Shown here: in pieces, positions 46,172-59,576 of the stretch
How positions within the stretch are numbered: the stretch's first letter is position 1
Layout of the letters: each line of letters starts with the position of its first letter
Assembly (NCBI RefSeq): GCF_000348785.1
Contig: NC_020520.1
Location: 930,001-994,000 of the forward strand
Direction of reading: 5' to 3'
Source of the DNA: Ilumatobacter coccineus YM16-304
Lineage (GTDB): Bacteria; Actinomycetota; Acidimicrobiia; Acidimicrobiales; Ilumatobacteraceae
Length of the DNA stretch: 64,000 nt
Notes under the pieces: generated by a model
Told to the model about the DNA's origin: nothing
Databases searched by the model: none
What the model saw: the letters and a program-made list of their open reading frames with translations, nothing else
Program-made: the position numbers and the translations under genes

Positions 46172-48295
46172 TCAGGCGTCGGCGGTGACGGGGACGGCGT
46201 CGATGCGGGGGAGCAGTTCGATGAGCTCGTCGGGGGCGACGGCCGGAGCGAACAGCCAGCCCTGGAATGCGTTGCAGCCGAGTGAGGCCAGGCGCTCGAG
46301 CTGGTACGGCTGCTCGACGCCTTCGGCGACGCAGCCGAGCTGCAGGCTCTCGCTGAGGCCAAGGATCGCCGTGGTGAGGTTGGTCGCTGCCGGGTCGACG
46401 TCGATGCCGGCCACGAAGCGCCGGTCGATCTTCACGCCGTCGACGGGGAGTTCGAGCAGGTGCGAGAGCGACGAGTACCCGGTTCCGAAGTCGTCGATCG
46501 AGACGTGGATCCCGGCCCGACGCAGGTCTTGCATGTTGTTGAGCGACGTGGCGCCGGGGGCGAGCAGGTCGGTCTCGGTGAGTTCGATGACGATCTGCGC
46601 CGAGTTGGCACCGAACTCGGCGCACTTCTCGAGGAACTTCGTGGCGAACGAGGCCTGCGAGATGACCTTGGGGTCGACGTTGACGTGCACTTCGATGTAG
46701 CCGAAACCGGCGAGGTCGAGCTGCGCGGCGAACGCGAGCGACTGTTCGAGCACGCGATCGTCGACGGCGCCCATGAGGCCCGCCATCTGAGCGAGCGGCA
46801 AGATCTCGCCGACACCGAGGACGCCGCGGACCGGATGCACCCAGCGGACGAGGGCTTCGACGGCGGTGACGGTGCCGTCGGCCGACACGATCGGCTGGAA
46901 GAACGGCTGGATCTCGCCGGCGTCGAGTGCGGCTCGGAGTTGATCGAGCTGCTGACGGCGTTCGTTGATCGCGTCGAACGAGATGCCGCCGGTTTCGGGG
47001 TCGGCGTTGCGCTTGACCCGCATGAGTTCGTTGCTCGCGCTGGCGAGCAACGATTCGAGGCGGGGTTGGGGCTCGAAGGCAGTGGCCGTTCGTACGCCGA
47101 TGTTGATCTCTTGATCGTCGACGAGCACGGCTTGGGCGACTTCGCGACGGACGCGTTCGCGCAGCATCTCGATGGCCGAATCGCTCGACGAGCGAACCGC
47201 GAGCACGAACTCGTCGCCACCGAATCGTGCCGTGATGAGGTCGGGCCAGCGGATGAGGTCGATGCGATCGGCGACGGCGGCGAGCACGCGGTCTCCGACG
47301 CGTTCGCCGTACAGCTCGTTGATCGACCGGAACTGCACGACGTCGATCACCATCAGGCCGAGACCGCCACCGGCTCGCATCAGTTCGCGTGCCGACTTCA
47401 TGAACCCGTCTCGGTTCAGGAGGCCGGTGCGGCTGTCGTGATCGGCGAGGAAGTCGACGCGTTCGCGTGCGTCGGAGAGTGCGGCGGCGACCTGGCCCGA
47501 CACGACGAAACCGCCGAGTGTCGGGTCGTCGGTGAGGTTGTTGACCGTGAACTCGCAGGTGACGAAGTCGTCGCCGCCGGCCGTGAGGAATCGGGCGTCG
47601 AGCGCAGCCGAGTCGTACGAACCGAGGTTCGACACGATGTCGAACACCTGGGCGCGGTCGTCGGGATGGACGAACCTGAGGAAGCCCTGGCCCGGCAACA
47701 CTTCCGGGTCGTGGCCGAGGATGCGGGTGACCGCTCCGTTGATCGAGCGCACGCGCCCGTCGGCGTTGACGATGGCGATCATGCCGTGCATGTTGGCCAT
47801 CACCGCGCGCAGCACGGCGACCTCGCCCTGGTCGAGGTCGAGTCGGTGGCGGAAGGTGGTGTCACGGCAGATCATCACCGTCATCGGTTCGCCGTCGACG
47901 AGATGTTGCGCGCCGCGGACCTCGAGCGACTTCCATTCGCTGGTGCCCGTGCGGACGCGTACGGCGATGAGGTCGCCCACCGACTTGTCGCCGACCGTGC
48001 CGAGCGAGGCGATGGCGAGATTGAGGTCGTCGGGATGGACCAGTTCGAGCACGCTGAGTCCCAGCACGTCGCGTTCGCTCCACGCCATCGTGGCCGTGGC
48101 CGTGGTGTTGACGTACTGGATCAACCCGTTCGCGTCGACAGCGATGACGGGGTCTCCGAGATGATCGATCTCCGGAACCGGGCGAACGCCCGACATGTGC
48201 GTCACACCGGTGTGTCGGCGCGAAGGTGTCCGAGCTTGAGCACTTTCTTCTGAAGTGCCGGTGGGTTCGGTGGTGGGTGTCATCAGCGTGCTCAT
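46172..48295 (-). CDS. PAS-PAS-GGDEF-EAL cyclic-di-GMP protein
   Basis: 707 residues, no membrane segment, hence cytosolic. Two PAS-like sensor domains (about 44-150 and 160-270), then GGDEF domain with intact GGDEF (359-363) and EAL domain with EALVRW (480-485), ELTET (571-575), DDFGTGYSS (601-609), Lys622 and EGVE. Both diguanylate cyclase and phosphodiesterase motifs look intact. The inhibitory RxxD site is one residue out of register (RWPD at 349-352), so product inhibition may be lost. Start ATG 48295; ATG 48283 is possible. The gene is divergent from rplM. Confidence 0.9.
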   Translation of the reverse strand: MSTLMTPTTEPTGTSEESAQARTPSRRHTGVTHMSGVRPVPEIDHLGDPVIAVDANGLIQYVNTTATATMAWSERDVLGLSVLELVHPDDLNLAIASLGTVGDKSVGDLIAVRVRTGTSEWKSLEVRGAQHLVDGEPMTVMICRDTTFRHRLDLDQGEVAVLRAVMANMHGMIAIVNADGRVRSINGAVTRILGHDPEVLPGQGFLRFVHPDDRAQVFDIVSNLGSYDSAALDARFLTAGGDDFVTCEFTVNNLTDDPTLGGFVVSGQVAAALSDARERVDFLADHDSRTGLLNRDGFMKSARELMRAGGGLGLMVIDVVQFRSINELYGERVGDRVLAAVADRIDLIRWPDLITARFGGDEFVLAVRSSSDSAIEMLRERVRREVAQAVLVDDQEINIGVRTATAFEPQPRLESLLASASNELMRVKRNADPETGGISFDAINERRQQLDQLRAALDAGEIQPFFQPIVSADGTVTAVEALVRWVHPVRGVLGVGEILPLAQMAGLMGAVDDRVLEQSLAFAAQLDLAGFGYIEVHVNVDPKVISQASFATKFLEKCAEFGANSAQIVIELTETDLLAPGATSLNNMQDLRRAGIHVSIDDFGTGYSSLSHLLELPVDGVKIDRRFVAGIDVDPAATNLTTAILGLSESLQLGCVAEGVEQPYQLERLASLGCNAFQGWLFAPAVAPDELIELLPRIDAVPVTADA

Positions 48296-48378
48296 TCCAA
48301 CGTACGTCAGCCGAAATCGCCGGGACGCGATGGTGGGCTCAATGTTAGGGACGCATCTGGAGGCCGTCGAGTCGCGAG

Positions 48379-48407
48379 TTGGGCTCGAGGCCGCGTCGCC
48401 GTAGCCT
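48379..48407 (+). promoter_or_regulatory. Promoter of rplM-rpsI operon
   Basis: -35 TTGGGC (48379-48384), 17-bp spacer, -10 TAGCCT (48402-48407). It resembles the rplC and infA promoters in sequence and spacing. Start near 48413, leader about 100 nt. Confidence 0.55.
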
Positions 48408-48416
48408 TGCGGGGTT

Positions 48417-48513
48417 CCATCGGGCGACCTCGGTCGCCGGTGGATGCTGCTTCGGCAGTCGGAAACAACGTGATCTCCGCCGCGGCGGGGTCCAGAAAAC
48501 CACGAGGTCCATC
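48417..48513 (+). promoter_or_regulatory. Structured rplM leader
   Basis: Hairpin CCATCG.GCGACC with GGTCGCCGGTGG (48417-48443), a small CTGC-TTCG-GCAG tetraloop hairpin (48447-48458), and a palindrome CCGCCGCGGCGG further on. L13 leaders that bind the protein are known in other phyla; function here is inference. No gene is seen in the 48296-48513 gap. Confidence 0.4.
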
Positions 48514-48960
48514 ATGGCCACCTATTCACCCAAAGCAAGCGAGATCACCCGCGACTGGCACGTCGTCGACGCCGAAGGACTCGTCCTCGGCCGCATGTGC
48601 ACCGAAGTCGCTCGCGTCCTGCGCGGCAAGCACAAGGCGATGTACGCGCCGCACATCGACACCGGCGATCACGTCATCATCATCAACGCCGACAAGATCG
48701 TGATGACCTCGGGCAAGGCCGAGCGCACGTTCAAGTACCGTCACTCGGGCTACCCGGGCGGCATCAAGTCGGAGTCGTTCGCCAAGCTGCACGCTCGCAA
48801 GCCCGAAGAAGCAGTGCGCCAGTCGGTGCGCGGCATGCTGCCGAAGGGCCCGCTCGGCCGTCAGCAGCTCACGAAGCTCAAGGTCTACGCCGGGTCTGAG
48901 CACCCGCACGGCTCGCAGAAGCCCACGGCCATGCCCATCGATCACGCGAAGGCCCGCTGA
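48514..48960 (+). CDS. rplM: 50S ribosomal protein L13 (uL13)
   Basis: 148-residue L13: TRDWHVVDAEGLVLGRMCTE, VARVLRGKHKAMYAPHIDTG, DHVIIINADKI, YRHSGYPGGIKS and GMLPKGPLGRQQLTKLKVY. ATG 48514 is chosen by homology; CGAGGT upstream. Paired with rpsI as in nearly all bacteria. Confidence 0.97.
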   Translation: MATYSPKASEITRDWHVVDAEGLVLGRMCTEVARVLRGKHKAMYAPHIDTGDHVIIINADKIVMTSGKAERTFKYRHSGYPGGIKSESFAKLHARKPEEAVRQSVRGMLPKGPLGRQQLTKLKVYAGSEHPHGSQKPTAMPIDHAKAR

Positions 48961-49003
48961 GCCGGCTCGCTGACCACACACGACTGACGAGAACGAGAAG
49001 AAC

Positions 49004-49396
49004 ATGACTGCACCACTCACCCAGACCACCGGCCGCCGCAAGCGCGCCGTCGCCCGCGCCTCGCTTCGCCCGGGCACCGGCCAGTTCACCATCAACGGCA
49101 AGTCGCTCGAGGCGTACTTCCCGACCGCTGCGTCGCAGATGGTCGTCGCCGAGCCGCTGGTCGTCACCGACACCCGCGAGTCCTACGACATCGCCGCCAG
49201 CATCCACGGCGGCGGCGCGAGCGGCCAGGCCGGCGCACTGCGCATGGCGATCGCCCGTTCGCTGGTCGAGCTCGACCCCGAGAGCCGCAACGACCTCAAG
49301 GCCGCCGGCCTGCTCACGCGTGACCCGCGTAAGAAGGAGAGCAAGAAGTACGGCCTCAAGAAGGCCCGTAAGGCCCCGCAATTCACCAAGCGCTGA
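49004..49396 (+). CDS. rpsI: 30S ribosomal protein S9 (uS9)
   Basis: 130-residue S9: [51 protein letters not shown] and the C-terminal [24 protein letters not shown] whose tail touches P-site tRNA. The glmM start follows 13 bases later. Confidence 0.97.
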
Positions 49397-49409
49397 GTTC
49401 GGCCACGCG

Positions 49410-50726
49410 ATGAAGTTCGGCACCGATGGTGTTCGTGGCGTCGCGTACGAAGAATTGACGATCGAGTTCGCCGCACGCCTCGCGCGTGCGGCGTCTCGCG
49501 TTCTGGGGGCGGATGGCGCCTCGACCGTCGTGATCGGAGGCGACACGCGTGAGTCGACCGACGACTTCGCCGACGCCCTGACCGACGGTTTCGTCGAGTC
49601 GGGGCTCGACGTGATCCGGTTGGGCGTCGTTCCGACGCCGACGGTTGCGTTCGAGGCGCAGCGACTCGGTGCGATCGGCGCCGTGGTCTCGGCGTCGCAC
49701 AATCCGTTCCACGACAACGGGATCAAGTTGTTCGCCGCGGGAGGCACGAAGCTGCCCGACGACGTGCAGGCCGAGATCGAAGCCGAGCTCGAATCGCCGT
49801 CGGATGCGCGGTCGACCGCGGCCGGTTCGGTCGTCGCAGCGTCCGACGTCGGCGCGTACAGCGACCACGTGCTCTCGCTGCTCGAGGGACGCGATCTCAC
49901 GGGCCTCAAGGTCGTGCTCGACACGGCGAACGGCGCGGCCGTCGGTCTCGCTGCCGACGTGTTGCGTGCTGCGGGTGCCGGTGTGATCGTCATCGCCGAC
50001 GAGCCCGATGGTCGCAACATCAACGCCGACTGCGGCGCCACCCACCCCGAAACGGTTGCCGCCGCCGTCTTGCAGCACGGCGCCGACGTGGGCATCGCAC
50101 TCGACGGTGATGCCGATCGTCTGATCGCGGTCGATCATCGCGGCGAGGTGGTCGACGGCGACCATGTCATCGCGATCTGCGCCGACGATCTCCGAGCGCG
50201 TGGGCGCCTCGCGCACGACACCGTCGTCGTGACCGTCATGACCAACCTCGGATTCCGGTTGGCCATGCAGCAGGCCGGCATCGAAGTGGTCGAGACCGGT
50301 GTCGGCGACCGGTACGTGCTCGAAGCGCTCGCCGACGGCGGCTACTCGCTCGGCGGGGAGCAGAGCGGTCACATCATCTTCGCCGACCATGCGACGACCG
50401 GTGACGGGCTCCTGAGCGCGATCGCGCTGCTCGACATCGTGAAGCGCACCGGTCGACCGCTCGCCGAGATCGCCGCGGCGGCGATGACCTCGCTGCCGCA
50501 GGTGTTGGTCAACGTGAAGGTCGGTGAGAAGGTGCCCGACGTCGCCGAACTCCTCGCCGACGACATCGCTCGCGTCGAGCACTCCTTGGGCGAGACGGGC
50601 CGTGTGCTCGTGCGCGCCAGTGGTACCGAGCCACTCATCCGGGTCATGGTCGAAGCCGCCACCGCGTCCGACGCCCGATCCGCCGCCGACGACCTCGCCG
50701 CCATCGCCCGCAACCGATTCGCCTGA
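49410..50726 (+). CDS. glmM: Phosphoglucosamine mutase
   Basis: 438 residues. Converts glucosamine-6-P to glucosamine-1-P. MKFGTDGVRGVAYEELTIEF, the phosphoserine loop VVSASHNPFHDNG (Ser96), metal loop ALDGDADRLIAVD, sugar loop GGEQSGHIIF and phosphate site VRASGTEPLIRVM. It follows rpsI, a common arrangement in Gram-positives, and lies in the same direction as the glmS-like gene that makes its substrate. ATG 49410 gives the canonical N-terminus although no strong ribosome site is visible. Confidence 0.95.
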   Translation: MKFGTDGVRGVAYEELTIEFAARLARAASRVLGADGASTVVIGGDTRESTDDFADALTDGFVESGLDVIRLGVVPTPTVAFEAQRLGAIGAVVSASHNPFHDNGIKLFAAGGTKLPDDVQAEIEAELESPSDARSTAAGSVVAASDVGAYSDHVLSLLEGRDLTGLKVVLDTANGAAVGLAADVLRAAGAGVIVIADEPDGRNINADCGATHPETVAAAVLQHGADVGIALDGDADRLIAVDHRGEVVDGDHVIAICADDLRARGRLAHDTVVVTVMTNLGFRLAMQQAGIEVVETGVGDRYVLEALADGGYSLGGEQSGHIIFADHATTGDGLLSAIALLDIVKRTGRPLAEIAAAAMTSLPQVLVNVKVGEKVPDVAELLADDIARVEHSLGETGRVLVRASGTEPLIRVMVEAATASDARSAADDLAAIARNRFA

Positions 50727-50758
50727 CTCGGGAACCCGAGGCCTGCGCCGGACGTCGA

Positions 50759-51445
50759 ATGTCCATGAGGCAGTTCCTGACCGCTGGTCTGCTCGTGCTG
50801 GGCGCCTGCACGTCGGGTGGCGAAGCCGCCGAGCCGACGGTGCCCGACGCGACGGTGGTGGTGACGACGACGTTGCCGACTCGCCTCGACCGGCCGCAGG
50901 GTGCCACTGACACGGTGATCGTCTTGGAACAGCGCCATCGGCCGTTCTACGGACCGGTCGGACGGATCGAGTTCGCCCTCTACGGCGACCGGACGTTCGT
51001 TGCCGAAGAACGTGGGGACGACGACGTCGAACTCGTGACCGGAGAGTTCGACGAACTGCAGGTCCAAGACCTCCTACGCCGGGCGTTGGCAGCGGGGCTC
51101 TTCGAGGTGCCGACGAGTCCGACCACCGCGCCGGTCCAGTCGTGTACCGACAGCGCTCCGACCTACCTGACGCTGACGATGCCGGGCGCTGCGATCGAGC
51201 GCCGCGCCGACCTGTGCGCCGACCCCGATGCGTTGGCCGGATTCGAGTCGACGCTCCGTGACGCAGTCGACGACGTATCGGTCACGGAGTGGACGCCCGC
51301 CCGGTGGATCACGACGAGCGAGACCGATGCGACATGCGTGTTCAGCGATGAGCGCGTCGATCGATGGGTGAGCCGACCGGTGTTTCCGCACGAGGAGTTC
51401 CTGCCCATCGAGCAGATCATTCCCGGCTGTGAACCGCTGACCTGA
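50759..51445 (+). CDS. Small lipoprotein, unknown function
   Basis: 228 residues. MRQFLTAGLLVLGACTSGG shows a lipobox LGAC (Cys17 from ATG 50759; ATG 50765 also possible). After a Thr/Val/Pro linker the domain has FALYGDRTFVAEE, LQVQDLLRRALAAGLF and four Cys that may form two disulfides (SCTDS, DLCADP, ATCVF, IPGCEP). Not recognised. Between glmM and glmS in the same direction, so probably co-transcribed. Confidence 0.7.
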   Translation: MSMRQFLTAGLLVLGACTSGGEAAEPTVPDATVVVTTTLPTRLDRPQGATDTVIVLEQRHRPFYGPVGRIEFALYGDRTFVAEERGDDDVELVTGEFDELQVQDLLRRALAAGLFEVPTSPTTAPVQSCTDSAPTYLTLTMPGAAIERRADLCADPDALAGFESTLRDAVDDVSVTEWTPARWITTSETDATCVFSDERVDRWVSRPVFPHEEFLPIEQIIPGCEPLT

Positions 51446-51478
51446 GCCGGGCGGCGGAGGTCGATAGCGTGGACAGCC

Positions 51479-54400
51479 ATGTGTGGAATCATCGCGGTCG
51501 TCGGTCGGCCTCCAACCCGCCCGGTCCCTTCGGCTGAGAACCTCGTCGGAGGGCTCGACGCTGCGCTCGAGGTGCAGCCCGACCTCCCGGCGATGACCTC
51601 CGCGGTCCGTACGGTCGACGCAGCGTTGCACGGCCTGCCCGGCGTGTTGGCGCTCACGGGGCTCGTCGACATCGTGGCGTCGCTCACGTCGCGCCTCGAC
51701 CGACTCGACGCGTTCGCCGCCGAGCGTGAGGCCGAACTCGACCAGAACGACGCCGGCCTCGTCGGCGATGCGCTCGAGACCGCCAACGCCGAACTGATCG
51801 ACCTGAAGGATGCGCTGTGGGCGGTGCGCAACGATCGATTCCGCACGGTCAGGGAAGTCGAGGCGCTCGCCGGGCGTGACGCCAACCGGTCGGCGCTCGC
51901 CGCGTACCTCGTCGCGCAGCAGGCATTCTCGGCACTCGATCGCCTCGAAGTGCGCGGACGCGACTCCGCCGGTATCCACCTCTACGTCCGCAACCACGAC
52001 ATCGCTCCCGACGCACTGGCCACACTGCTCGCCGAGCGGGGTCACGACCCGCTGTTCGAATCGGGCTCGGTCGTAGCGACCGACACGCCCGAGGGGCCGG
52101 TGCTGTCGTTCGTGTACAAGAAGGCAGCCGAGATCGGCGAACTCGGCGACAACACCGCCGCGTTGCGTGCCGCACTGGCCCGAGACCAACTGTTCCGGCG
52201 AGCGGTCTCGTCACCGGATGCTCAGGCGACGTTGCTCGGCCACACCCGTTGGGCCAGCGTCGGCATCATCTCCGAACCCAACACGCACCCGCTGAACTCC
52301 GAGGAGTCGGAGCGGTCGGGCGGCGACGCCTGCCCGTACGTCGTCGGCGCGTTGAACGGCGACGTCGACAACCACGGCGACCTCCGCATCGAACACAGCC
52401 TCTCGATCCCCGGTCAGATCACCACCGACGCCAAGGTGATCCCCACCATCACGGCGCATCACCTCGCCGACGGCGTCGAACTCGTCGACGCGTTCCGTCG
52501 CACCGTGGCGACGTTCGAGGGTTCGGTGGCGATCGGCGTGATGGCCGCCGACCACCCGTCGACCCTGCTGCTCGCACTGCGCGGCAGCGGTCAGGGTCTG
52601 TACATCGGTCTCGGCGACGACTGCTATGTCGTGGCCTCCGAGCCGTACGGCGTGGTCGAGGAGACCTCTCGCTACGTGCGCATGGACGGCGAACACGGTG
52701 GCGAGATCGTGGCGCTCGACGCTTCGCTCGCCGGCGAAGTCGGCGGTGTGAGCCGCTTCTCGTACGACGGATCACCGCGGCCCGTCATCGACGACGACGT
52801 CAGCTCCGCCGAGGTGACCACCCGCGACATCGACCGCGGCGACGCCCCGCACTTCCTCCTCAAGGAGATCTCCGAGGCGCCCGACAGTTTCGCGAAGACG
52901 CTCCGCGGCAAGATCGCGGCGACCGGCGACGGCAACCTGCGCGCCGTGGTCGGCGCCCGCGCGTTGCCGCAGACCATCGCCGAGAAGCTGGCCGACGGCA
53001 CGATCACCCGCATCCGGGTCATCGGCCAGGGCACGGCGGCGGTCGCCGGGCAGAGCACCGCGGCCATCCTCGACGAGTTGACCGACAGCAGCCTCGACGT
53101 CGACGCGATCACCGCCACCGAACTCTCGGGGTTTCACCTCCGGCTCGACATGAGCGACACGCTCGCCATCGCGGTGAGCCAATCGGGCACGACGACCGAC
53201 ACCAACCGAACCGTCGACCTGATCCGCAGTCGTGGCGGCATGGTCATCGGCATCGTCAACCGCCGCGGCTCCGATCTCACCGACAAGGCCGACGGCGTGA
53301 TGTTCACCTCCGACGGTCGTGACGTGGAGATGAGCGTCGCCTCCACGAAGGCGTTCTACGCCCAGGTTGCCGCCGGGGCGCTGCTCTCGTGTGCGATCGC
53401 CGAGGCCGCAGCGGGCGACGACGGTGGCGACATCCGCCGCCGGACGCAGCTCCTCGGATCGCTCCGGGCGATGCCCGACGCGATGCGCACGACCCTCGCT
53501 CGCCGAGACGTCGTCGCCGACGCCGCCCGCCGCCTCGCGCCGCCGAAGCGCTACTGGGCCGTGGTCGGCAACGGGCCGAACAAGGTCGCCGCCGAAGAGG
53601 TTCGGATCAAGCTCAGCGAGCTCTGTTACAAGTCGATGGCCTGCGACTCGACCGAAGACAAGAAGCACATCGACCTCAGTTCCGAACCGCTGATCCTGGT
53701 CTGCGCCGCAGGTCTCGAAGGCTCGACGGCCGACGACGTGGCGAAGGAGGTGGCGATCTTCAAGGCGCACAAGGCGACGCCGATCGTCTTCGCGACCGAG
53801 GGCGAGACGCGCTACAACGCGGCAGCCGTCATCGAGGTGCCGCAGGTCGACCCGACGCTGGGCTTCGTCCTGTCGGCGATGGTCGGCCACCTGTTCGGCT
53901 ACGAGGCAGCCCTCGCCATCGACGCCTCCGCGCACCCGTTGCGGCACGCCCGCGAGGAGATCGAACGCGTCGTCGGCGACGGGCTGTCGGGCGACGCCGC
54001 GCTGGGCCGGTTGCGTCGCGATCTCGCTCACGCCGCCGACCGCTTCGACGACGGACTGCGATCGAATCTGTTCGACGGCCACCTCGAAGCGTCCACGGCG
54101 GTGCGGTTGAGCGGCATCTTCCGTGACCTGCTGTCCGACCGTCCCCTCGAGTCGTACCAGCGGTCGTCGGGCAAGGTCGTCACCCCGTCGTCGTTCGTCG
54201 ACGACCTCGTCGCCGCGTTGACCGCGGCGATCGAAGAACTCACCCGGCCGGTCGACACGATCAAGCACCAGGCGAAGACCGTGACGGTGGGCATCTCTCG
54301 CAGCGACGAGGGCATCATCGACCGTCCGCTCGTACAGGCGGTCTTGGAGGCCGGTGCCGGCCGTGACGTGCTCAGCTACCGCTCGCTCAAGGTGCTCGCC

Positions 54401-54865
54401 GACCTCGACCCGGCGGTGGCCGGCGTGCGCGGTTTCACCCGCTACGACATCGATGGCGACGCGATCAACGTGATCGACCGGGGCGGCATTTCACGAGATC
54501 TGCCGAGCCGTGTCGAAGGCGTCGGTGTCCTCCGTGGCACCAAGCACCGTGTCGCGTCCGAGCAAGAGGTGCTGGTCGCCGCCGGACGCAGTGACGGGCG
54601 CCTGCTCATCTTCGTTCCCGAGGTGAAGAGTGGCGAGACCACGGGCCTGGTGCTGCTGCACGTCGCCTTCCACGACACGCTTCCGGCCGACGTGATGCGC
54701 GGTGTGCTGCAGGGGTACGACACGCGCTACGACCGTCTCGTCGACTGGGTCAACGAGACCGAGGGGGCGTTCGACGAGTCGCTCCTCGGCACGATCTCGG
54801 TCGAGGAGTTGCTCATCGGTCCGATCTCGGCGACGGCCGATCACTGGAGAGAATCGAATCGATGA
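51479..54865 (+). CDS. glmS: Oversized glutamine--fructose-6-phosphate aminotransferase-like protein
   Basis: 1128 residues against about 610 for GlmS. Catalytic Cys2 (MCGIIAVVG) is present, but the next motif RGRDSAGI comes at 160-166 rather than near 30, so a helical insertion of about 130 residues splits the glutaminase domain. LGHTRWASVG (253-262) and ALNGDVDNHGDLR follow. The first SIS domain has SQSGTTTDT and VASTKAF; the second has EEVRIKLSELCYKSMACDST and EDKKHIDL where typical GlmS has the EGALKLKEIS and GELKHGP motifs. A tail of about 300 residues after the second SIS domain (from about 820) is not recognised. Substrate should be Fru-6-P plus Gln, but several motif changes leave room for another ketose. 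Its stop overlaps acpS. Confidence 0.85.
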   Translation: MCGIIAVVGRPPTRPVPSAENLVGGLDAALEVQPDLPAMTSAVRTVDAALHGLPGVLALTGLVDIVASLTSRLDRLDAFAAEREAELDQNDAGLVGDALETANAELIDLKDALWAVRNDRFRTVREVEALAGRDANRSALAAYLVAQQAFSALDRLEVRGRDSAGIHLYVRNHDIAPDALATLLAERGHDPLFESGSVVATDTPEGPVLSFVYKKAAEIGELGDNTAALRAALARDQLFRRAVSSPDAQATLLGHTRWASVGIISEPNTHPLNSEESERSGGDACPYVVGALNGDVDNHGDLRIEHSLSIPGQITTDAKVIPTITAHHLADGVELVDAFRRTVATFEGSVAIGVMAADHPSTLLLALRGSGQGLYIGLGDDCYVVASEPYGVVEETSRYVRMDGEHGGEIVALDASLAGEVGGVSRFSYDGSPRPVIDDDVSSAEVTTRDIDRGDAPHFLLKEISEAPDSFAKTLRGKIAATGDGNLRAVVGARALPQTIAEKLADGTITRIRVIGQGTAAVAGQSTAAILDELTDSSLDVDAITATELSGFHLRLDMSDTLAIAVSQSGTTTDTNRTVDLIRSRGGMVIGIVNRRGSDLTDKADGVMFTSDGRDVEMSVASTKAFYAQVAAGALLSCAIAEAAAGDDGGDIRRRTQLLGSLRAMPDAMRTTLARRDVVADAARRLAPPKRYWAVVGNGPNKVAAEEVRIKLSELCYKSMACDSTEDKKHIDLSSEPLILVCAAGLEGSTADDVAKEVAIFKAHKATPIVFATEGETRYNAAAVIEVPQVDPTLGFVLSAMVGHLFGYEAALAIDASAHPLRHAREEIERVVGDGLSGDAALGRLRRDLAHAADRFDDGLRSNLFDGHLEASTAVRLSGIFRDLLSDRPLESYQRSSGKVVTPSSFVDDLVAALTAAIEELTRPVDTIKHQAKTVTVGISRSDEGIIDRPLVQAVLEAGAGRDVLSYRSLKVLADLDPAVAGVRGFTRYDIDGDAINVIDRGGISRDLPSRVEGVGVLRGTKHRVASEQEVLVAAGRSDGRLLIFVPEVKSGETTGLVLLHVAFHDTLPADVMRGVLQGYDTRYDRLVDWVNETEGAFDESLLGTISVEELLIGPISATADHWRESNR

Positions 54866-55233
54866 TCGTCGGCATCGGCATCGACCTGGTCGACATCGAC
54901 CGGTTCCGCCGGTCGCTCGAACGAACGCCGTCGATGCGCACCCGGCTCTTCACCGAGTCGGAACTCGCGTACACCGAGCCACAGATCGACCCGGCACCCT
55001 CGCTCGCCGCACGTTTCGCGGCGCGCGAGGCCGTGATGAAGTCGCTCGGCCTCGGACTCGGCGCGTTCGGGTTCCACGACGTGTGGGTCGAACGTGCCGA
55101 GTCCGGTACGCCATCGCTCATGGTCGTCGGGCGCGCCCTCGACCTGGCGGCCGAGGCGGGCGTTGCCCGCTGGCACCTGTCGTTGACGCACTCGGCGACG
55201 ACCGCCGGAGCGTACGTCGTCGCCGAAGGCTGA
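54862..55233 (+). CDS. acpS: Holo-[acyl-carrier-protein] synthase
   Basis: 123 residues. MIVGIGIDLVDIDRFRRSLE contains the catalytic Asp, with LFTESELAYTE, SLAARFAAREAVMKSLGLGL, and WHLSLTHSATTAGAYVVAEG at the end. Transfers 4'-phosphopantetheine from CoA to ACP. ATGA overlap with the glmS-like gene. Convergent with the collagen-like gene 12 bp downstream. Confidence 0.94.
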   Translation: MIVGIGIDLVDIDRFRRSLERTPSMRTRLFTESELAYTEPQIDPAPSLAARFAAREAVMKSLGLGLGAFGFHDVWVERAESGTPSLMVVGRALDLAAEAGVARWHLSLTHSATTAGAYVVAEG

Positions 55234-55245
55234 CGTCTCCGACGA

Positions 55246-57726
55246 TCAGCCGTCGATGCAGACCGCGTAGGCCGTGACTCGATAGTTGCTGGTGATGACG
55301 CCGGCGCGGGTGGCGATCGTCCACGTGTCGGGTGCCGTCAGCCGGCTCTCGAGGATGAACGGTGGCTCGCTGCCACCGCCGCTCAGCATCTCGATGAGAT
55401 GACCGCCGGCAACCGCGAGCTTCCCGCTCGGACAGCTTGCCGTGACCGTCTTGCTCCCGCTTCCGGTGCTCGACGGCGTACCTGACTCGAACGAGACGCC
55501 ACTCACGCCACCCACCGGCCCAGCAGGCCCCATCGGCCCAGCAGGTCCCTGCGGCCCAGGCGCACCATCGACGCCGTCAGCCCCTGCGGGTCCAGCAGGC
55601 CCTTGCTCACCTTGCGGTCCGGGTGCGCCGTCGACGCCGTCAGCCCCTGCGGGTCCAGCGGGTCCTTGTTCACCCTGTTCGCCTTGTTCGCCCTGTGGTC
55701 CTTGGGGTCCTGCGGGCCCGACGGGACCTGCGGGTCCGTCGGGTCCCATGGGTCCGGTCGGCCCGGTCAAGCCGGTCTCGCCTTGTTCTCCCTGTGGTCC
55801 AGCAGGCCCTTGCTCACCCTGTGGTCCGGGTGCGCCGTCAGCGCCGTCAGCGCCTGCGGGTCCGGCTGGGCCCTGTTCGCCCTGTTCGCCCTGTGGTCCT
55901 TGGGGTCCTGCGGGTCCGACGGGTCCTGCGGGTCCGGCGAGGCCGTCGGGTCCCATGGGTCCGGTCGGCCCGGTCAGTCCGGTTTCACCTTGGGGTCCCT
56001 GTTCGCCTTGCGGTCCTTGTTCGCCCTGTGGCCCAGCAGGTCCTTGCTCACCCTGTGGTCCGGGTGCGCCGTCAGCGCCGTCAGCGCCTGCGGGTCCGGC
56101 TGGGCCCTGTTCGCCCTGTTCGCCCTGTGGTCCTTGGGGTCCTGCGGGTCCGACGGGTCCTGCGGGTCCGGCGAGGCCGTCGGGTCCCATGGGTCCGGTC
56201 GGCCCGGTCAGTCCGGTTTCACCTTGGGGTCCCTGTTCGCCTTGCGGTCCTTGTTCGCCCTGTGGCCCAGCAGGTCCTTGCTCACCCTGTGGTCCGGGTG
56301 CGCCGTCAGCGCCGTCAGCGCCTGCGGGTCCGGCTGGGCCCTGTTCGCCCTGTTCGCCCTGTGGTCCTTGCGGTCCTGCGGGTCCGACGGGACCTGCGGG
56401 TCCGGCGAGGCCGTCGGGCCCCATGGGTCCGGTCGGCCCGGTCAGTCCGGTTTCGCCCTGGGGTCCCTGTTCACCTTGCGGTCCTTGTTCGCCCTGTTCT
56501 CCCTGCGGTCCGGGTGCGCCGTCGGCGCCTGCGGGTCCAGCGGGTCCTTGTTCGCCCTGTTCACCTTGTTCGCCCTGTGGTCCTTGTGGTCCTGCGGGTC
56601 CGGCGAGGCCGTCGGGTCCCATGGGTCCGGTCGGTCCGGTCAGTCCGGTTTCGCCTTGGGGTCCTTGTTCACCTTGCGGTCCTTGTTCGCCCTGTTCTCC
56701 CTGCGGTCCGGGTGCGCCGTCGGCGCCTGCGGGTCCAGCGGGTCCTTGTTCGCCCTGTTCACCTTGTTCGCCCTGTGGTCCTTGTGGTCCTGCGGGTCCG
56801 GCGAGGCCGTCGGGTCCCATGGGTCCGGTCGGTCCGGTCAGTCCGGTTTCGCCTTGGGGTCCTTGTTCACCTTGTGGTCCGGGTGCGCCGTCGAGTCCGT
56901 TGGCGCCTGCGGGTCCGGCGGGTCCTTGTTCGCCCTGAGGTCCCTGTTCGCCTTGTTCACCTTGTGGTCCGGCTGGGCCCTGTTCGCCTTGCGGTCCGGG
57001 TGCGCCGTCGAGTCCGTCAGCGCCTGCGGGTCCAGCGGGTCCCTGCTCACCTTGTGGTCCGGGTGCGCCATCGGCGCCCGGCGAGCTGGCAGGCCCTGCG
57101 GGTCCCGCCGGTCCAGCAGGACCCTCCGGCCCGGCCGGACCGACCGGTCCAGCAGGACCCTGGGGTCCCGTCGCGCCACCCGAGCCGCTCGACTCGGTGT
57201 AGTACGCGAGCACGTCGACGGTGACGTTGGTCGTGCCGGCAGCGTTGAACATGGCGAACTCACCACTGGTCGACAGCGTCACACCGGTGCTGTTGCCGCT
57301 CACGGCCTGACCGGGGCTCGGGTTCAGCTGCGAGATCGTCGGACGGCTCGCAGCATCTGCCGGATACATCGTGATGTACGACTGCGCGGTCGCGCCGATC
57401 GCCGCGATGTTCACGTCGATGGCGGTCGCGGTCGAGGGGATGGAGCAGTTGCCGTTGTCGCCGAAGACCTCGAAGACGATGGTCTCCCCAGGTCCGATCG
57501 GCGTCGTGCGCGGTCCGACCGACTGATTTGCTCGAGTGTCGATCAATCGACACGGCACGATGGGGTTGACCGTCGAGGCCGGCTGGTCTGCCGCGTTGAC
57601 GAGTCCCAGGCCGCCTGCGCCGAGCGACACGGCCACCGCCGCACCGATCGCGGCCCAGCGGCTTCGATTGAGCCGGCCCGGTCGATCGCCAGGGCCAGCA
57701 ATCCGGTTCCTGCTCCGATTGCTCAT
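55246..57726 (-). CDS. Collagen-like surface or secreted protein
   Basis: 826 residues. Signal peptide or anchor at the N-terminus ([20 protein letters not shown], residues about 24-43). Residues about 48-178 form a strand-rich domain of a type common in actinobacterial exoproteins ([52 protein letters not shown]). About 183-738 is a nearly unbroken Gly-X-Y collagen-like tract, then a C-terminal globular domain with two Cys ([30 protein letters not shown]). No sortase motif. ATG 57726 is chosen for the upstream AAGGGGC and signal peptide. It may form a rod-like cell-surface fibre; that is inference. Confidence 0.88.
55509..57178 (-). repeat. Collagen-repeat DNA (66/78-codon higher-order units)
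   Basis: Within the collagen-like gene, six long units start at [16 protein letters not shown]. The first two are 22 triplets (198 bp) and units 3 and 4 are 26 triplets (234 bp, for example from 55981 to 56215). Units of the same length are almost identical in DNA as well as protein, pointing to recent duplication or gene conversion. One break, PASSPGADG, interrupts the Gly-X-Y pattern near its start. Confidence 0.9.
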
Positions 57727-57751
57727 GCCCCTTGATCGGCATGTCTTGTCA

Positions 57752-57769
57752 AAGTCTTGAGAAAGACTT
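57752..57769. promoter_or_regulatory. AT-rich inverted repeat between divergent genes
   Basis: AAGTCTT (57752-57758) and AAGACTT (57763-57769) around GAGA, with further CTTG words on both sides (57743-57775). This 119-bp gap between the collagen-like gene and the acyl-CoA synthetase gene is much more AT-rich than its surroundings, which fits promoters or an operator serving both. Confidence 0.45.
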
Positions 57770-57845
57770 GAGTTTGAACTTCGCCGAATCGGGGAAGAGC
57801 GACGTGGATTCGGTGTGCGAACCCGATCGCTGCGATCATGTCGGC

Positions 57846-59576
57846 ATGATCGAAGAGTACGCAGCGGCGTGGGATGAACTGACGGCTCCGGGAGCGCAGT
57901 TCGCGATGAGCGAGATCGAGGTGCGCGGTGTGCCGATCCGTGTGTTCGATGCGGCACCACCGTCGATGCGGTTCGTGTGGGAACTCGCTGCGCTGCACGG
58001 CGACAAGGACTACATCGTCTTCGAAGACGAGCGGCTCACGTATGCCGAGGCCGACGCTCGCGTCAAAGCACTGGCGCACCATCTCGTCGACGTGCACGGC
58101 GTGGGGTCGGGCGACCGCGTCGCCGTGGCCATGCGCAACTATCCCGAGTGGGTGCTGTCGTACTGGGCGATCGTGTCGATCGGCGCTGCGTGCGTCGGGA
58201 TGAACGCGTGGTGGACCTCCGACGAGATGAAGTACGGGCTCGCCGACTCGCGGCCCAAGGTGCTCATCGCCGACGACGAGCGGGTCGAACGCGTGCTGCC
58301 GATTCTCGACGACCTTCGCAACGGCGACGGCGGGGCGCCGCTGCACCTGATCAGCGTGCGCTACGACGGTGACCTGCCCGACGACGCAGCTCGCTGGAAC
58401 GACGTGATCGATCCGAGCGCCGCTCCGGCCACGCTGCCCGACGCCACGATCGACCCCGACGACGACGCCTGCATCTTCTACACCTCCGGCACCACCGGGT
58501 TCCCGAAGGGCGCGCAGCTCACGCACCGCGGTTCGGTGCACAACCTGATGGACCTCGGGTTCATGGCCGCGGTGAGCGCCGCAGCCGCCGCCAAGGCCGG
58601 GGTGCCGTCGAAGGCCCCCGACCTCACGCCCGACGGCGAAGCGAAGCAGCTCGCGTTCATGGCGCCGACACCGCTCTTCCACGTCACCGCGAACAACTGC
58701 CTGCTCCACCCGGCCACGTTGAGCGGCGCCAAGCTGGTCCTGATGTACAAGTGGGATGCTGCGCGTGCGATCGAGCTGATCGAGCGGGAAGGCGTCACCA
58801 ACTTCTCCGGCGTGCCGACCATGAGCCGCGAGATGCTGCTGCATCCCGACTGGGAGACGCGCGACACGTCGACGCTCGCCGGTCTCGGTGGCGGCGGTGC
58901 GCCGCTGCAACCCGACCTCGTCGACAAGATCGACAAGAACCTCAAGGGTGGGGCGAGCACCGGATACGGGCTCACCGAAACGCACGGCATCGTCACCGCC
59001 AACTCGGGTTCGCTGTACGTGTCGAAGCCGGCGTCGTGTGGCCGGGTCGTGCCGTGCCTCGACTACAAGCTGATCGACGACGCCGGCAACGAGGTGTCGG
59101 GCCCGGGCGCTCGCGGTGAGCTGTGCGTGCGCGGCGCCGTCGTCATCAAGGGCTACCTCAACCGTGAAGAGGCGACCGCCGACGCCATCCAAGACGGTTG
59201 GTTCCGGACCGGCGACATCGCCGAGATCGACGACGACCAGTTCGTGTTCATCGTCGACCGTGCGAAAGACATGGTGCTGCGCGGCGGCGAGAACGTGTAC
59301 TGCAGCGAGGTCGAGGCCGCGATCTACGAGCACGACGCGGTCGCCGAAGCCGCGGTGTTCGGCGTTCCCGACGACCGCCTCGGCGAGATCGTCGGCGTGG
59401 CGATCGTGCTGGTCGACGGGCACACGCTCGACCAGGACGGTCTCACCGAGTTCCTCAGCGAGAAGCTGGCGAAGTTCAAGATCCCCGAGCGCGTGTGGAT
59501 CCTGAACGAACCGCTGCCACGAAACGCGAGTGGCAAGTTTCTCAAGCGCGAGCTGCGTGATTCTCTCGCTGGTTGA
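57846..59576 (+). CDS. Long/medium-chain acyl-CoA synthetase (ANL family)
   Basis: 576 residues. [80 protein letters not shown] and catalytic Lys in [13 protein letters not shown] fatty or other carboxylic acid is activated to acyl-CoA; chain-length preference is not visible. ATG 57846 is chosen because upstream codons ([12 protein letters not shown]) do not look like the family; the usual N-terminus [15 protein letters not shown] starts here. nnr follows after 15 bp. Confidence 0.88.

Follow-up and report, generated by a model that had tools for sequence, protein, structure and literature searches.

A long-form glmS in the 64,000-nucleotide stretch of the Ilumatobacter coccineus YM16-304 genome analyzed here (the window, to which positions refer unless another contig is named) encodes a protein of 1128 residues that very probably functions as glucosamine-6-phosphate synthase. 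Genome searches, alignments, and a phylogenetic tree indicate that this protein is the only GlmS of its host, that its active sites and its locus are conserved, that its family is ancient, and that it carries a private C-terminal domain. Whether the enzyme is regulated through this extra domain is, in our estimate, an evenly balanced question. Cell-wall amino-sugar synthesis begins with GlmS, an antibacterial target.

The long-form gene and its genome

A first-pass annotation, made from the DNA letters, had described the gene as GlmS-like and about twice the normal size, and a single open reading frame of 1128 residues was indeed found (Table 1). The same annotation placed it between glmM and acpS; acpS overlaps the stop codon, but a 228-aa ORF separates the gene from glmM. 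This small ORF has a lipoprotein-like start (LLVLGACTSGG) and ends only 33 bp before the long-form glmS. Directly after acpS, the minus strand carries a 904-aa ORF with long collagen-like Gly-x-y repeats (55246-57960). No element was matched in an Rfam search of positions 48000-56000, and this result, together with the 33 bp between the ORFs, ruled out a riboswitch or ribozyme such as the glmS ribozyme.

Table 1. Features of the long-form glmS and its neighbors, in window coordinates
Feature	Position	Strand	Basis or remark
glmM (phosphoglucosamine mutase), next pathway step	49410..50726	+	PGM_PMM domains I-IV
228-aa small ORF between glmM and long-form glmS	50759..51445	+	no Pfam match
Long-form glmS	51479..54865	+	1128 codons open, 1128 aa
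N-terminal strand with nucleophile Cys2 (E. coli Cys1)	51479..51505	+	invariant in 49/49 long forms
Insert 1, residues 10-136, all helical, long hairpin 63-89/97-131	51506..51886	+	AlphaFold2 model
R-loop segment RGRDSAG, R159 = E. coli Arg26	51887..51994	+	alignment
Insert 2, residues 173-247, conserved FVYKxAxEIGELGDN	51995..52219	+	homologue comparison and model
Class-II glutamine amidotransferase core: R257, W258, N293, G294, D317	52220..52723	+	PF13522 over cut-off, alignment
SIS lobe 1, phosphate loop SQSGTTTDT (567-575)	52814..53548	+	PF01380, alignment
SIS lobe 2, catalytic E707/K711/E714/K729/H730 = E. coli E481/K485/E488/K503/H504	53549..53920	+	alignment
Insert 3, residues 815-917, helical, from SIS lobe 2 to C-tail	53921..54229	+	AlphaFold2 model
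Catalytic C-tail RPVDTIKHQAKTVTVG, Schiff-base lysine K933 (codon 54275-54277)	54230..54304	+	alignment
Private C-terminal domain, residues 943-1128, weakly GAF/PAS-like fold	54305..54862	+	model, Foldseek
acpS	54862..55233	+	overlaps long-form glmS stop codon

A Pfam scan of the 1128-aa protein detected GATase_6 (PF13522, over cut-off) and SIS domains (PF01380). The protein matched the GlmS models NF001484 (E=2.8e-71, 240.7 bits; curated cut-off 381) and TIGR01135 (E=1.8e-65, 221.6 bits; curated equivalog cut-off 418), and by its score below the TIGR01135 cut-off it is best classed as a distinct GlmS-like subfamily rather than as canonical GlmS. Since the family falls below the curated GlmS cut-offs, automatic annotation may call GlmS missing in such genomes.

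The host genome is a single contig of 4,830,181 bp. A search for a normal glmS, proposed in the first-pass annotation, found no other full-length protein with the GlmS models, and SIS domains were over cut-off in this gene only. The other strong GATase match was PurF, and a second GlmS in the complete genome was ruled out; a third GATase match was partial, within a 329-aa frame. The earlier suggestion that this may be the only GlmS is thus borne out, also by the mutual exclusion of long and canonical forms in 296 genomes (see below), and the 1128-aa protein is predicted to be the sole GlmS of the cell.

Domain anatomy and active sites

The AlphaFold2 model of the 1128-aa protein (pLDDT 86.5, pTM 0.75) matched the structures of E. 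coli GlmS and human GFAT-1, and both Pfam and model comparison placed a GATase-II plus double-SIS fold in the long form. The spacing read from the letters, ~130 residues between Cys2 and RGRDSAGI and a second gap of ~50 before GHTRWA, agrees with the alignment, in which R159 lies 157 residues on from Cys2, a distance ~130 residues greater than that in E. coli GlmS, and H255 is preceded by about 50 extra residues. The ~300 residues said to follow the last SIS domain were also found (~314 after the lobe end near 814), but they contain the catalytic C-tail. Structure prediction of the insert and the tail, which had likewise been proposed, gave a helical Insert 1 and divided the tail into the likewise helical Insert 3, the catalytic C-tail, and a domain of 186 residues. 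The C-tail, which includes IKHQAKTVTVG, is internal, at residues 918-938 of 1128, and its Schiff-base lysine K933 (E. coli Lys603) had been missed inside the "tail." To our knowledge, the C-tail ends the protein in all GlmS/GFAT enzymes of known structure. Residues 927-944 had low pLDDT, which suggests that this part of the C-tail is a mobile loop. The best conserved domain of the long form is SIS lobe 2, and the fastest-evolving parts are Inserts 1 and 3, for which homologue searches (for Insert 1, of the PDB) gave nothing beyond chance resemblances to helical bundles and histones.

To check the active sites, 49 long proteins were aligned to E. coli GlmS. All 49 keep Cys1, Arg26, Arg73, Trp74, Asn98, Gly99, and Asp123, as well as Gln348, Ser349, Thr352, Glu481, Lys485, Glu488, Lys503, His504, and Lys603 (E. 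coli numbering); the catalytic set named by PMC9272926 is Cys1, Glu488, His504, and Lys603. Cys2 of the 1128-aa protein, rightly read as kept from the first, corresponds to Cys1, and the SIS catalytic residues Glu488, His504, and Lys603 correspond to E714, H730, and K933. The motif EDKKHIDL does stand at 726-733 in place of GELKHGP, as had been noticed, but the catalytic histidine is retained within it (H730 = His504). The phosphate-site residues are nearly all kept. Three substitutions relative to E. coli GlmS, Cys300 to Gln, Ser303 to Ala, and Thr76 to Ser, occur in all 49 long forms, and His77 and His97 are mostly replaced by hydrophobic residues. With the catalytic and nearly all phosphate-site residues kept and glmM nearby, the new substrate that had been suggested finds little support.

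The C-terminal domain, modeled alone, reached a pLDDT of 93.4 and a pTM of 0.89. Its residues S1010, R1011, G1020, K1022, G1036, D1039, R1041, P1047, and H1061 are invariant, and its conserved charged residues persist down to 28-39% identity. The top Foldseek matches of residues 945-1128 were mostly sensor domains of the GAF, PAS/LOV, and Cache types, from which the long-form domain is set apart by weak scores (best E 1.9e-3, TM below 0.5) and by Pfam and PDB sequence searches with nothing above chance; we therefore speak of a resemblance to GAF/PAS only, and of a weak one. Nothing significant was found in a viral fold library. Of 197 Actinomycetota genomes searched, 19 have a single copy of the domain; in 17 of these it lies in a frame of about 1120-1260 aa and in the other two in a shorter one, and across the set it appears to be restricted to the long GlmS family.

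Distribution and phylogeny of the long form

Searching genome contigs with the 1128-aa protein yielded 53 loci with 27-79% identity, most of them full length; together with the spread of the long form through the class, they show that the long frame is a product neither of chance nor of a frameshift. About 119 of 296 Acidimicrobiia genomes, some of them incomplete, carry the long form (roughly 40%, tallied by eye from two tables), and canonical GlmS over the family cut-off is present in 159; no genome has both, and each family of the class has either the long or the short GlmS. Long and short forms share the locus rplM-rpsI-glmM-glmS, in most cases followed by acpS. The long form without canonical GlmS was also found in six Acidobacteriota genomes and in one unclassified genome, where glmM is adjacent. 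In two more distant carriers, L054 (a "Micrococcales" MAG) and L061 (a "Rhodobacteraceae" MAG), canonical GlmS is present as well; in these genomes the long protein may have another role, or the bins may be mixed. The first-pass annotation had named a long form common to all Acidimicrobiia and already characterized as the case against it; the share of the class given above differs from this, and a literature search for long GlmS found no describing paper, so that the branch is apparently undescribed.

A tree was built by a quick method from 594 columns common to nearly all rows; with several long branches and unsure deep joins, it separated the long and short proteins into two deep clades, with ~3.8 changes per column on the branch leading to either. 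The long form is therefore not a recent insertion into a local glmS, and the long GlmS subfamily is, as far as sequences can tell, ancient. The Acidobacteriota rows formed one fully supported group, and because this group is nested among the Acidimicrobiia rows, the Acidobacteriota appear to have acquired the long form by transfer from Acidimicrobiia. The nearest named relative of the 1128-aa protein is from I. nonamiensis.

The distant relative in L061 (1382-5332) is a 1317-aa protein in which SIS lobe 2 lacks the catalytic Lys-His (Asn735-Ala736) and a third SIS-like copy with HKHIDM lies at the C terminus. Because His504 of GlmS is normally supplied by the partner subunit, this protein may be a covalently fused pseudo-dimer. 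Its cassette (L061:445-7238) encodes an NAD-dependent epimerase, the GlmS-like protein, a phosphohexomutase, and an NTP transferase; a normal GlmS is encoded elsewhere in this genome, and the cassette is possibly a dedicated nucleotide-amino-sugar pathway. The GlmU of the I. coccineus genome (G000:C1:3679811-3680866; L128:1303-2388) has 361 aa. GlmU scores fall in the reduced range or lower in all genomes of the window's order, where a separate GlcN-1-P (or GlcN-6-P) acetyltransferase would therefore be needed, and in the full-length range in most others of the class.

Role of the extra domains and comparison with known systems

The explanation that we favor, at a shade better than even, is that the protein works as a GlmS and carries an allosteric control of its own, exerted via the C-tail; we infer its catalysis, sensor role, ligand, and C-tail coupling as follows. 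Cys2 would release ammonia from glutamine, the ammonia would pass the Trp258 gate, and in the SIS half E714, H730, and K933 would aminate and isomerize fructose-6-P. The C-tail, a mobile element common to both active sites, is held at both ends by new modules. The C-terminal domain might bind a small metabolite via its invariant Arg, Lys, and His residues and, via the C-tail, might set the ease with which the sugar site and the ammonia channel close. New regulation by a weakly GAF/PAS-like domain attached to the mobile catalytic C-tail is thus plausible.

The inserts and the C-terminal domain of a working GlmS could instead be purely structural, fixing the oligomeric state, adding stability, or offering a surface for protein docking, and would then sense no metabolite. 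We consider this possible, if somewhat doubtful: the helical make-up and fast evolution of Inserts 1 and 3 are common in scaffolds, and the GAF/PAS resemblance is weak, but S1010, R1011, K1022, D1039, R1041, and H1061 are invariant across phyla and point to a pocket more than to a scaffold. It is improbable that the long form takes some other sugar or nitrogen donor as its substrate and yields an amino sugar other than GlcN-6-P. The three substitutions found in every long form are compatible with such a change, as is the distant L061 protein in its epimerase, mutase, and nucleotidyltransferase cassette beside a normal GlmS; however, more than 100 genomes have no GlmS but the long form, which stands at the glmS place beside glmM and keeps all of its catalytic and glutamine-binding residues. 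A bifunctional fusion, with the C-terminal part a GlcN-6-P N-acetyltransferase that replaces a missing GlmU half, is very improbable. The GlmU of the genome does end before the region of the E. coli acetyltransferase active site, but its truncation tracks the taxonomic order, whichever GlmS is present: within the order, families with a canonical GlmS have equally low GlmU scores, and outside the order, GlmU is full length even in families with the long GlmS. Nor did any match of the C-terminal domain belong to an acetyltransferase family or fold, and the fusion was largely ruled out accordingly. An assembly error or accidental fusion of neighboring ORFs, for which only the unusual size speaks, has a negligible probability, since homologues of 1100-1300 aa occur at full length in about 119 genomes of Acidimicrobiia and also among the Acidobacteriota.

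A working GlmS under allosteric control can be set beside two known systems. With canonical bacterial GlmS (E. coli GlmS, TIGR01135, PDB 4amv/2j6h), the long form has in common the domain order, the nucleophile Cys with the SIS catalytic Glu, His, and Lys, and, within Acidimicrobiia, the position beside glmM. It differs in its twofold length, three inserts, and private C-terminal domain, in an internal C-tail where invariant Gly938 replaces the terminal Glu608, and in forming a separate deep clade with scores under the TIGR01135 and NF001484 cut-offs.

GlmS control is post-transcriptional in bacteria and by UDP-GlcNAc feedback in eukaryotes (PMC9272926), a feedback that constitutes the main difference between the eukaryotic and prokaryotic enzymes (PMC7000685). 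The long form has the same catalytic core as eukaryotic GFAT-1 (PDB 6r4e) and, like it, is likely to be regulated, but its extra parts lie at different places. The UDP-GlcNAc contacts Thr447, Thr458, Gly461, and His463 of GFAT-1, named in PMC7000685, align with V593, A604, V607, and F609; a eukaryote-type UDP-GlcNAc site was ruled out because the contact residues are not kept, and any control of the long form would therefore be of another design. We tentatively propose, at somewhat less than even probability, an ancient GlmS subfamily, the sole GlmS in much of Acidimicrobiia and transferred to Acidobacteriota, in which an allosteric sensor private to the family is attached to the catalytic C-tail and would give protein-level feedback control of amino-sugar synthesis unlike the UDP-GlcNAc switch. 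If the C-terminal domain is a sensor, bacteria would possess a protein-level feedback control of GlmS other than the eukaryotic one.
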